NCBI GenBank assembly: GCA_014874455.1
Contig: JADBJL010000090.1
Coordinates: forward strand, 62,001-126,000
Source of the DNA: Thermomicrobiaceae bacterium
Lineage (GTDB): Bacteria; Chloroflexota; Chloroflexia; Thermomicrobiales; Thermomicrobiaceae
DNA: 64,000 nt
Direction: 5' to 3'
Positions 3,556-8,025 of the stretch are shown one piece after another (position 1 is the stretch's first letter; every line of letters begins with the position of its first letter). The notes under the pieces are model-generated. The model did no database searches, was not told where the DNA came from, and worked only from the letters and a program-made list of their open reading frames with translations. The position numbers and the translations under genes were made by a program.

Positions 3556-4359
3556 GTGCCTGCCCGTATCCGTGCCGATGAACGCTTACTCCAGCAAGGG
3601 CTCGTCGAATCCCGCAGCCAGGCGCGGGCACTGATCCTGGCGGGGCGGGTATGGCTGGGTGACCAGCGGGTCGACAAGCCAGGGATGCTCGTTCCGGTCG
3701 ACGCGGAACTGACGGTCACCCGGCCACCTCGCTTCGTGAGCCGTGGTGGCGAGAAGCTCGATTACGCGTTGACGGCGTTCGGGATCGATGTCGCGGGGCT
3801 CGTCTGCGCAGATTTCGGTGCCTCGACCGGTGGCTTCACCGATGCGCTGTTGCAACGGGGGGCGAGCCGCGTCTACGCGATCGATGTGGGGTACGGTCAA
3901 CTCGACTACCGGTTGCGTCGCGATCCGCGTGTGGTGGTGATGGAACGCACCAACGTTCGCTATCTGGAGCGACTGCCTGAGCCAGTCGACCTGGTTACGA
4001 TCGATGTATCGTTCATTTCGCTGCGGCTTGTCCTGCCAGCGGCACGTCGTGTCTTGCGGCCGGGCGGTCGGGTTATCGCTCTCATCAAGCCGCAGTTCGA
4101 GGCTGGGCGCGGGCGGGTCGGCAAAGGAGGGATCGTGCGCGACCCTGCGGTTCACCGCGAAGTGCTGGAAACGGTGCTGGCGAGTGCGATCGAGCAAGGG
4201 TTTACACCGGCAGGTCTGGTGCGTTCGCCGATCTTGGGGGCAGAGGGAAACGTCGAGTTTCTCGCTTTGCTGCGTCTCGATACCCAGATGCCCACCGTCT
4301 CCCTGGAGAGCTTGATCGCGTCGGCGCTTAGGGCCGAATCGGGCGGGAGAGAGCAGTGA
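3556..4359 (+). CDS. tlyA: TlyA-family rRNA (cytidine-2'-O)-methyltransferase, S4 + FtsJ-like
   Basis: S4-like N-terminus (IRADERLLQQGLVESRSQARALILAGRVWLGDQRVDKPG); FVSRGGEKLDYAL; DFGASTGGFTDALLQRGA; ALIKPQFEAGR. Confidence 0.9.
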   Translation: MPARIRADERLLQQGLVESRSQARALILAGRVWLGDQRVDKPGMLVPVDAELTVTRPPRFVSRGGEKLDYALTAFGIDVAGLVCADFGASTGGFTDALLQRGASRVYAIDVGYGQLDYRLRRDPRVVVMERTNVRYLERLPEPVDLVTIDVSFISLRLVLPAARRVLRPGGRVIALIKPQFEAGRGRVGKGGIVRDPAVHREVLETVLASAIEQGFTPAGLVRSPILGAEGNVEFLALLRLDTQMPTVSLESLIASALRAESGGREQ

Positions 4360-5153
4360 AGCAGGCTGAGCGAGACGTGTTCGCCGCGATCCGTGCAGCC
4401 GTGTTGGGTGAGACCGACGTCGGATCGGTCGGGAACCCCGGACTGTGGCTGGATCCCGGACGCGAGGCACGAACCGGCACACCGGAAGTCGTCCTGGCGG
4501 AGGGAAAGACGTCCGAGCAGCTCCTGGAGAGCGCGAGGACGATGCTGACACGCACCGGTCGAGTCATCGTCAGCCGCGTGGCCGAGGAGCAGCGGAGGGA
4601 ACTGGAAGGCGCGTTCCCGGACGTCGCGTGGCGACATAACCCAGGAGGTCGAACGATCGTCGGTCGCACCGCCCAGTACTCTCTTCCTTACTCGGGAGGT
4701 CGTGTGGGGATCCTAACGGCCGGCGCCTCAGACTACCCCGCGGCCGATGAGGCCCGGCTGGTCGCTGAGGAGATGGGATGTGCAGTCCAGCTCTACCAAG
4801 ACGTAGGCGTGGCTGGGCTGCACCGCCTTATCGTGCCGGTACGCGAGTTGCTCGCCTGGAAGGCCGACGTCGTGATCGTCGCGGCTGGGATGGACGGTGC
4901 GCTCGCTTCCGTGGTCTCAGGCTTGGTGCCGCTCCCGGTGATCGGCTTACCGACGGCTGTCGGTTACGGGGCAGGCGGCAGGGGCGAAGCCGCGTTGCTC
5001 AGTATGCTGCAGACGTGCGCGCCCGGCCTCGTCGTCGTCAACATCGACAACGGTATCGGTGCCGGGATCGCCGCCGCGCGTATCGCCGGGCTCGCCGCCC
5101 GGATGCGACGAGAGGCCAAAGAGGCGATCAGTGCGACCCCAGCGGAAGATTGA
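4356..5153 (+). CDS. larB: LarB-like protein (nickel-pincer cofactor biosynthesis / AIR carboxylase-like)
   Basis: GILTAGASDYPAADEARLVAEEMG, QDVGVAGLHRL, VVIVAAGMDGALASVVSGLVPLPVIGLPTAVGYG, NIDNGIGAG. Confidence 0.82.
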   Translation: MKQAERDVFAAIRAAVLGETDVGSVGNPGLWLDPGREARTGTPEVVLAEGKTSEQLLESARTMLTRTGRVIVSRVAEEQRRELEGAFPDVAWRHNPGGRTIVGRTAQYSLPYSGGRVGILTAGASDYPAADEARLVAEEMGCAVQLYQDVGVAGLHRLIVPVRELLAWKADVVIVAAGMDGALASVVSGLVPLPVIGLPTAVGYGAGGRGEAALLSMLQTCAPGLVVVNIDNGIGAGIAAARIAGLAARMRREAKEAISATPAED

Positions 5154-6081
5154 GCCGGAGGCCTTTCAACAGTCGCTCCGCGAGGGTACGCGGGTCGACC
5201 TGGCGCGTCACCAGGGCAGCTCGCTCGTTTTCTGGTAGCGCCGCCAGAGCGCTGTCGAGCCGCTCCTCGAGCGCTTCGAGCGCAAGGAAGCGTACCTCGC
5301 TCAACAGGCGGCGCTGCAGCCGTTCGAGCCGCTGCCCCGTCGCGTCAAGTTGTGTCCGGTGGTCGAGAATGCCTTGGAGGAGGGAGGCGACACCATCGCC
5401 TGTCGTCGCGACCGTCGCGTGGATCGGAATATGCGGTGAGGCGGCTCCGGCGAGGCGCTGGAGCGACCGCAGGTCACCGACCACACGCGCAGCCTCGGGT
5501 AAATCGGCTTTGTTGACGACGAAGATATCGGCGATCTCCAGTGTGCCCGCCTTGAGCGCCTGCACATGGTCGCCGAGCCCGGGAACGAGCACGAGCACCG
5601 TCGTGTCGGCGAGGCGGGCGATCTCGACATCGTCCTGGCCGGCACCCACGGTCTCCAGCACGATGAGATCGAACCCGAACGCATCGAGCAGGTGCGCCAT
5701 TGCGCAGAGCGACGGCGCCAATCCCCCACAGCGGCCGCGGCTGGTCAGGCTGCGGACGAAGACCCCGTCGTCGGACGCGATGTCGAGCATCCGGATGCGA
5801 TCTCCCATCACCGCGCCGCCCGTGATCGGGCTCGTGGGGTCGACGGCGAGCACGGCGATGGTCAGACCGAGGCGCCGAGCCTCGCGCGCCAGCGCCGCGA
5901 TCAACGTGCTCTTTCCAGCGCCGGGTGGGCCGGTTATGCCGACCAGATGCGCCCGTCCGGTCTGCCGGAAGAACTCGCGCTCAGCCGCGAGGCCGAGCGG
6001 GGTGCGGTTTTCCACATGCGTCAGCAGGCGGGCGAGCGCGCGCCGGTCACCGGCTCGAACGCGGGCCAGGAGGTCACTCAC
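5128..6081 (-). CDS. meaB: Methylmalonyl-CoA mutase-associated GTPase MeaB/ArgK
   Basis: [88 protein letters not shown]. Confidence 0.95.
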
Positions 6082-6527
6082 GAGCCACGCTCCCGATCGG
6101 GCGCGTGTTCGCGGATGAACGCGACGATCTCGTGCAGGGGGGTTCCTGGGCCGAAGACGGCAGCGATCCCCAGTGCTTGCAGGTGCGGGATGTCTTCTTT
6201 CGGGATGATCCCGCCAGCGACCACCAGGACATCGTCGAGACCAGCGCGGCGGAGTTCTTGCATGATCTGGGGGAAGAGCTGGTTGTGCGCGCCGGAGAGG
6301 ATGCTCAAGCCGACGACATCGACGTCCTCGTCCGCGGCGGCGCGGGCGATCCTTTCCGGCGTCTGAAAGAGACCCGTATAGATCACCTCCATTCCGGCGT
6401 CACGCAACGCGCGAGCGAGCACCTTAGCCCCGCGGTCATGGCCGTCGAGACCGGGCTTAGCGATTAGCACCCGGAGGGGGCGCGACCGCTGACGTCTGCC
6501 TGTTGCCACTGCCGCCTGCTCGACCAT
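6078..6527 (-). CDS. Stand-alone cobalamin-binding subunit of methylmalonyl-CoA mutase (C-terminal domain protein)
   Basis: [40 protein letters not shown] (DxHxxG B12 motif), [24 protein letters not shown]. Confidence 0.93.
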
Positions 6528-6572: not shown

Positions 6573-7139
6573 TCAATAGTGCAGTCCGCGTCGGAGCTGC
6601 TGGGGCTCCGTCTCCCGAGACTTGACCGTTCGCATGACGGTCACAGTGTCGGCCGCATCCTCCAACGCTGGCGTCGCGGCGCGGCCAGTCACGACGATGT
6701 CCGTCCACGGCGCAGCCTTCTCCATCAGTTCGAGCACAGTTCGGTCGGGCACCATCCCCTCATCGACGAGCGTCAAGAGCCCGTCGAGGATCAAGATATT
6801 CGTCACGCGCTGCGCGATGTGTCTCCGTGCTTCGCGCAACGCGAACTCGAGTCGCTCGGGGGCGATGCCAGGGCCGGCAATATCCTCGGCTCGAGTGCTG
6901 ACATCGATCAAGCCGTACTGAGAGAGCGATACCCCGGTGAGGAAGGACACCGCCGCCACCTCGCCGCGCTCGCGACCCGTCTTCAAAAACTGGATGATAT
7001 GGATGCGCAAACTGTGACCAGCTCCCCGTAGGGCGATGCCCAGCGCCGCATCCGAGGTTCGCCGCTCGTCGCCGACCAGGAGCATCAGATAGCCACGGCC
7101 CTCAGGGCGCTGCTCGTTGCCAACCTGCTCCTCCTGCAT
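6573..7139 (-). CDS. Divergent CobA/BtuR (corrinoid adenosyltransferase)-family protein with degenerate nucleotide-binding motifs
   Basis: Overall CobA-like pattern (LMLLVGDERRTSDAALGIALRGAGHSLRIHIIQFLKTG ... ILILDGLLTLVDEGMV ... DIVVTGRAATPALEDAADTVTVMR), but the P-loop reads GDERRTSDAA. Confidence 0.7.
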   Translation of the reverse strand: MQEEQVGNEQRPEGRGYLMLLVGDERRTSDAALGIALRGAGHSLRIHIIQFLKTGRERGEVAAVSFLTGVSLSQYGLIDVSTRAEDIAGPGIAPERLEFALREARRHIAQRVTNILILDGLLTLVDEGMVPDRTVLELMEKAAPWTDIVVTGRAATPALEDAADTVTVMRTVKSRETEPQQLRRGLHY

Positions 7140-7167
7140 ACCTGGATCCTCCACTCCCTCAGGGACG

Positions 7168-8025
7168 CTACTCCTGGTAGCGGTAGAAACCTTCACCGCT
7201 CTTTCTCCCAAGTTTGCCAGCCGCGACCATCTGCCGCAGGAGGGGACACGGGCGATACTTCGGATCACCCAGATCGTGGTGCAGCACCTCGAGGATATGG
7301 AGAACCACGTCCAGGCCGATCAGATCCGCCAGCTCCAGCGGCCCCATCGGGTGGTTGGCACCAAGGCGTAGAACGGTGTCGATCGCTTCAGCCGGAGCGA
7401 CTCCCTCCATCAAGGCATAGATCGCCTCGTTGATCATCGGTACGAGCACGCGGTTCGACACGAACCCCGGCGAGTCGTTGACGACGACCGGGGTCTTACC
7501 GAGCCGCTGCGCGAACTCCACCGCCGCCTCAACAGCCTGGTCACCAGTGCGCAAGCCGCGGACGACCTCGACCAGCTTCATGACCGGTACCGGATTGAAG
7601 AAGTGGAGCCCGATCACCTGCCCTGGCCGTTGAGTTGCCGCTGCCAGGAGCGTGATCGAGATCGAGGAAGTGTTGGATGCCAGCAGCGCTTCTGGCGCGG
7701 CATACTGATCCAGTCGCCGGAACACGTCTTGCTTGAGCTCGACCACTTCAGGGACGGCCTCGATGACGAGGTCGGCATCGGCAACAGCCTGCAGGTCGGT
7801 ATCCAGGGCGATGAGGCTCAGCGCAACAGCCGCCTGTTCTCGATCCAGCCGGCCACGCTCGACGGCACGGTCGAGTTGCCGCCGGATCTCTTCCAACGAG
7901 GCGCGCACGAGCTCGGGCTCGCGGTCGATCAAGGTGACGACAATCCCTGCCTGAGCGACCACCTGGGCGATGCCCCGGCCCATCGTACCCGCACCCACGA
8001 CTGCAACCCGTTGAATGCGATTCAC
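7168..8025 (-). CDS. 3-hydroxybutyryl-CoA dehydrogenase
   Basis: VAVVGAGTMGRGIAQVVAQAG; NTSSISITLLAAATQRPGQVIGLHFFNPVPVMKLVEVVRG; NDSPGFVSNRVLVPMINEAIY. Confidence 0.95.
   Translation of the reverse strand: MNRIQRVAVVGAGTMGRGIAQVVAQAGIVVTLIDREPELVRASLEEIRRQLDRAVERGRLDREQAAVALSLIALDTDLQAVADADLVIEAVPEVVELKQDVFRRLDQYAAPEALLASNTSSISITLLAAATQRPGQVIGLHFFNPVPVMKLVEVVRGLRTGDQAVEAAVEFAQRLGKTPVVVNDSPGFVSNRVLVPMINEAIYALMEGVAPAEAIDTVLRLGANHPMGPLELADLIGLDVVLHILEVLHHDLGDPKYRPCPLLRQMVAAGKLGRKSGEGFYRYQE

Follow-up and report, generated by a model that had tools for sequence, protein, structure and literature searches.

The window, a stretch of 64,000 nucleotides from contig JADBJL010000090.1 of a Thermomicrobiaceae bacterium (genome of 3.37 Mb, 99.89% complete), carries on its minus strand a run of four genes: hbd, then the gene of a P-loop-less CobA homologue, here called pCobA, then the genes of the small, B12-binding subunit of methylmalonyl-CoA mutase (MCM) and of MeaB (Table 1). 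The meaB start overlaps the stop of the B12 subunit by 4 bp. A position between hbd and a B12-domain/meaB pair had been proposed in the original prediction, and the profile matches of the neighbours bear this out. No cobalamin riboswitch or other known RNA was matched in an Rfam scan of the window. At its far end the run converges on larB, which adjoins meaB in most genomes of the family, with no larB match beside meaB in one genome (G005) or in two Sphaerobacter genomes.

Table 1. Genes and sequence elements of the pCobA locus (positions within the window; residue numbers are those of pCobA)
Feature	Position	Strand	Remarks
larB, nickel pincer cofactor biosynthesis	4356-5153	plus	NF033503; 26 bp convergent overlap with the 3' end of meaB
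meaB	5128..6081	minus	TIGR00750, E 2.9e-86
MCM small (B12-binding) subunit	6078..6527	minus	149 aa; TIGR00640, E 1.4e-55
pCobA	6573..7139	minus	188 aa, stop codon included
C-terminal RRGLHY, residues 183-188	6576..6593	minus	R183, R184, G185, H187 and Y188 fixed in 17/17 orthologues
TGR, residues 151-153	6681..6689	minus	kept except in Sphaerobacter
LDG, residues 118-120	6780..6788	minus	Walker-B Glu of CobA (E128, Salmonella numbering) replaced by Gly
RGEVAAVSFLTGV, residues 58-70	6930..6968	minus	invariant in orthologues; GE common to CobA, remainder newly fixed
Degenerate P-loop, residues 23-34	7038..7073	minus	GDERRTSDAALG instead of CobA-type GNGKGKTTAALG
Shine-Dalgarno GGAGG of pCobA	7148..7152	minus	8 nt upstream of ATG 7139; read directly
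hbd, 3-hydroxybutyryl-CoA dehydrogenase	7168..8025	minus	28 bp upstream of pCobA

In a Pfam profile search, pCobA matches PF02572 (CobA_CobO_BtuR) between residues 15 and 188, approximately its whole length, with 109.7 bits (E 2.4e-31) against a curated cut-off of 25.7 bits; the NCBIfam cobA profile, TIGR00708, gives it 75.1 bits, short of the equivalog cut-off of 167.75. By sequence, its sole significant relatives of solved structure are those of Salmonella CobA (1G64, 4HUT; PF02572), which has the same fold and length. The AlphaFold model of pCobA is of moderate confidence only (pLDDT 67.7, pTM 0.69), with pLDDT below 50 at residues 42-58, 75-90 and 173-188. Comparison with Salmonella CobA had been suggested as a structural check, and a Foldseek search of the PDB with this model places it in the CobA fold: the best four matches are all CobA, with E values from 2.2e-8 to 2.1e-7 and TM scores of 0.57-0.60 of the query. 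The CobA frame that had been recognised from the letters is thus supported by the profile match and by the predicted fold. In the model, strand 18-23 runs straight into helix 25-39, with no phosphate loop between them.

Both nucleotide-binding motifs had been described as lost, and both losses are real. The replacement of GNGKGKTTAALG by GDERRTSDAALG has its counterpart throughout the family, since the P-loop GxGKGKT is missing from all 17 pCobA orthologues in the alignment; LILDE reads LILDG, and in the same 17 proteins the D of the Walker-B type DE pair is retained while the E has become G. Compared with Salmonella CobA, whose numbering is used here, G38, K39, G40, K41 and Glu128 are replaced, H182 is gone and the conserved C-terminal segment KHP...G is largely missing. 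The fixed switches are I30Y, G38E, K39R, K41T, D122N and E128G, each written as the majority CobA residue followed by that of pCobA, except that position 30 is mostly L in CobAs. The positions that pCobA has in common with CobA include G29, G36, A44, A45, G47, R51, G54, G72, E73, D127, G160, A171, D172, V174, K181 and G193, and 53 more are fixed in the pCobA orthologues but variable in CobA. A third stretch, VTGR.A...L...AD.VT.M, had been given as kept; this holds for TGR and AD.VT.M in the window protein, but TGR is not universal, being replaced by SGA in the two Sphaerobacter orthologues, while R161 is retained elsewhere. The B12 subunit retains its GLDGHDRG and MeaB its P-loop, GPPGAGKST, as read from the sequence, so the CobA member is the only one of the operon to have lost its motif.

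Among 21 genomes of the heat-loving Thermomicrobiaceae, orthologues of pCobA -- taken as strong matches with E < 1e-50 -- are found in 17; they are 52-97% identical, none has an internal stop in its reading frame, and that of Thermalbibacter, a named member of the genus of the window genome, is 94% identical. Three of the genomes with no strong match (G007, G017 and G019) are 62-78% complete and are also without a B12-subunit match; in the fourth, G012, the mutase gene starts at base 88 of its contig, so that a pCobA gene would fall beyond the contig end. The P-loop, scored as G.[GS][KR]GK[TS], is retained in all 88 CobA homologues from other Chloroflexota families (32/32 and 56/56), which were taken from ranked matches across the class and phylum rather than drawn at random. 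A loss that is fixed in 17 of 17 orthologues and absent from the 88 outgroup proteins cannot be put down to chance or to faulty sequencing; a frameshift or misread is ruled out by the 17 genomes that lack the loop, which include a Sphaerobacter assembly in 2 contigs. A pattern scan for the new motif in 84,980 species genomes, narrow by design in that it covers this motif and not all conceivable P-loop-less CobAs, returned 13 loci, all on the Thermomicrobiaceae contigs already found.

The gene is under strong constraint. Within the genus its dN/dS is 0.023-0.095, where the corresponding ranges are 0.061-0.095 (hbd), 0.062-0.134 (B12 subunit) and 0.128-0.175 (meaB); it has the lowest value of the four genes in 5 of 6 species pairs, and in the closest pair, where changes are few, hbd and the B12 subunit lie slightly below it. 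Two Thermomicrobium species differ in pCobA by 60 synonymous changes and 0 non-synonymous ones. At the greater distances within genus g4, hbd and the B12 subunit are more conserved than pCobA, which is therefore not always the slowest gene. In the tree, the orthologues form one clade with 100/100 support and short inner branches on a long stem (3.96 changes per column), a burst followed by constraint, as would be expected for a new role. An attempt to place this clade by tree among the CobAs of similar operons failed, as the stem is too long and the outgroup backbone is unresolved; descent in place is therefore argued from synteny and not from phylogeny.

Wherever the locus has been assembled, the B12 subunit and meaB follow immediately after pCobA, save that in Sphaerobacter a mutase gene is inserted, giving the order pCobA, second mutase large subunit, B12 subunit, meaB; hbd was not found at this locus in Thermomicrobium or in G005. 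The Sphaerobacter operon mutase (L122 in G004, L123 in G009, L124 in G012) reads WTMRMF[SA]GFG and FPP.PSM[SK]L where MCM copies (compare L033) have WT[MI]RQYAG and PSMRL at the matching places. The positions that differ are presumably those of substrate specificity, and going by these motifs the enzyme may be a mutase of isobutyryl-CoA or of a hydroxyacyl-CoA and not an MCM; the neighbouring hbd and acyl-CoA dehydrogenases would be in keeping with this.

Equivalent operons occur in other Chloroflexota. The order is MCM-CobA-B12 subunit-MeaB in G118 (L207), mutase-CobA-mutase-B12 subunit-MeaB in G127 (L208) and Hbd-CobA-B12 subunit in G061 (L056; a 3.8 kb contig of a MAG that is 51% complete), while in G251 an intact CobA adjoins a mutase. 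The CobAs of the first three have the same kinds of neighbours as pCobA -- mutase, B12 subunit, MeaB or Hbd -- but, unlike pCobA, have kept both the P-loop and the DE pair; that of G061 is about 29% identical to pCobA. The two mutase large subunits that flank the intact CobA of G127 (C1:33500-44000), which also has the B12 subunit and MeaB, are different from each other. In sister families belonging to the same taxonomic order, the operon reads Hbd-B12 subunit-MeaB or mutase-B12 subunit-MeaB, with no CobA between, and in one of them an acyl-CoA dehydrogenase occupies the gap where CobA would be. Since two of these families (f2 and f3) run the operon without CobA, the mutase as such can do without the function of pCobA. 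The operon would once have held an active CobA dedicated to the mutase; some lineages would later have lost it, and in Thermomicrobiaceae it would have been deprived of catalysis.

A search for a second, intact CobA or a PduO had been recommended, and it gave a clear answer. PF02572 matches a single protein in the window genome, pCobA itself, and at most one in any Thermomicrobiaceae genome, so there is no second CobA; an intact PduO-type adenosyltransferase is encoded elsewhere in the genome (on contig C18; 173 bits), with the stretches RRAER and NRLSSLLF. PduO is matched in 19 of the 21 family genomes. It has no match in G009 (L042, L054), a Sphaerobacter MAG of 99% estimated completeness in which pCobA and two mutases are present; this may be due to a gap in the assembly or be a true exception, which would bear on whether pCobA is active. 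The window genome has one MCM large subunit, on contig C10 beside an epimerase-like gene, and no B12 subunit lies within 1.5 kb on either side of it. No MCM-type B12 subunit other than the window copy was found in the genome, a second PF02310 match being below cut-off, so the window B12 subunit very probably serves the large subunit on C10. An MCM-type large subunit is present in 14 of the 14 good Thermomicrobiaceae genomes; the Thermomicrobium genome G014 has, besides its full MCM, a partial MCM-like match (L125-L126, C12:348994-349584; profile positions 321-512).

The profile and fold, the fixed motif loss, the purifying selection and the conserved operon all give good support to the original prediction of a CobA-family pseudoenzyme in an MCM accessory operon, and so does the genome context, with its intact PduO and with just one MCM large subunit, for which the genome offers no other B12 subunit. 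Catalytic motifs have been lost from a protein that is still under purifying selection, and adenosyltransferase activity has, in all likelihood, gone with them. Position and ancestry make the further suggestion of a cobalamin-binding, delivery or regulatory role a reasonable one. The reading we favour, and to which we would give about an even chance, is that pCobA, having lost catalysis, escorts or docks AdoCbl at the complex of B12 subunit and MeaB, to both of which it is genomically linked. It is drawn by analogy: human ATR is both the catalyst and the escort of AdoCbl to MCM, with point mutations that affect the two roles differently (PMC8633584), and delivery by ATR to MCM is gated by MeaB/MMAA (PMC9974510). 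The PduO-type ATRs, of which human MMAB is one, work with MeaB/MMAA and MCM, and their catalytic and escort roles can be distinguished (PMC8633584), but they belong to a different family from pCobA (PF01923), and the window genome has its PduO as a separate gene. As the fold of human ATR is of the PduO type, unrelated to CobA, the precedent is a functional one only. The G-protein chaperone MeaB/MMAA shares operon and client mutase with pCobA; unlike pCobA, with its lost loop, it has an intact GTPase, and it works without directly binding cobalamin (PMC9974510).

The main competitor, rather unlikely in our judgement but well ahead of the others, is that pCobA has no dealings with corrinoids and plays a structural part alongside MeaB, the B12 subunit or the mutase, for example tuning GTP hydrolysis or holding a split mutase together. 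Its gene adjoins those of the B12 subunit and MeaB, in the window genome the large subunit of the mutase and its B12 subunit are encoded at separate loci, part of the C-terminal segment of CobA is gone, and the many newly fixed residues, among them the charged R45, H47, R56, R58, R96, E103, H107, R183, R184 and H187, could form an interaction surface. On the other hand, R51, G72-E73, D127, G160 and K181 have been kept, perhaps as part of a ligand site that has been preserved, and the partner itself is putative.

It is improbable that pCobA remains an active adenosyltransferase, or is an enzyme that uses nucleotides in some other way, by means of a rebuilt ATP site. The replaced loop is itself strongly conserved, as G[DH]ER.T, and there is the Sphaerobacter MAG that has pCobA but no PduO match; however, the Gly and Lys of the P-loop and the Walker-B Glu are missing in 17 of 17 orthologues, the predicted helix appears to pass through the loop, and nearly all of the genomes have PduO. 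We give equally little credence to a new enzyme unrelated to cobalamin adenosylation and tied to the acyl-CoA metabolism of the hbd side: in several genera hbd is the gene next upstream, and CobA has nothing that corresponds to the newly fixed motifs, but in Thermomicrobium and G005 the pCobA-B12 subunit-meaB arrangement stays though the operon has no Hbd, and outgroups have an intact CobA in equivalent places. A decaying, functionless relic of CobA, which the lost catalytic motifs, the presence of an unrelated adenosyltransferase and the absence of the gene from the operon of sister families might suggest, is barely credible given the intact frame in all 17 genomes and the 60-to-0 ratio in Thermomicrobium, and is ruled out by the dN/dS values.

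Escort or docking of AdoCbl by pCobA would have arisen as follows. The ancestor would have been a CobA-type ATP:corrinoid adenosyltransferase that served an acyl-CoA mutase alone; ATP binding and catalysis would have been lost in Thermomicrobiaceae, where new fixed residues took the place of the P-loop and the Walker-B Glu, while the unlinked PduO-type enzyme would cover adenosylation. What has been kept would be the non-catalytic half, binding AdoCbl or the complex of B12 subunit and MeaB and aiding the handover or repair of the cofactor between PduO and the mutase. Somewhat more tentatively, this could amount to a two-protein system beside MeaB, in which PduO makes AdoCbl and pCobA hands it over, the catalytic half having evolved away and the delivery half been kept. 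A search of the open-access literature turned up no description of such a separation of function between PduO and pCobA, and no mention of the pCobA operon or of any CobA-family pseudoenzyme.

An annotation that makes members of the pCobA family active cob(I)yrinic acid a,c-diamide adenosyltransferases is probably wrong. The route that AdoCbl takes from adenosyltransferase to mutase, and the part of the transferase that escorts it, are under active study, and the matter has its parallel in a human disease, cblB (PMC8633584); if the escort reading is true, pCobA would be a way to study the escort function apart from the chemistry.
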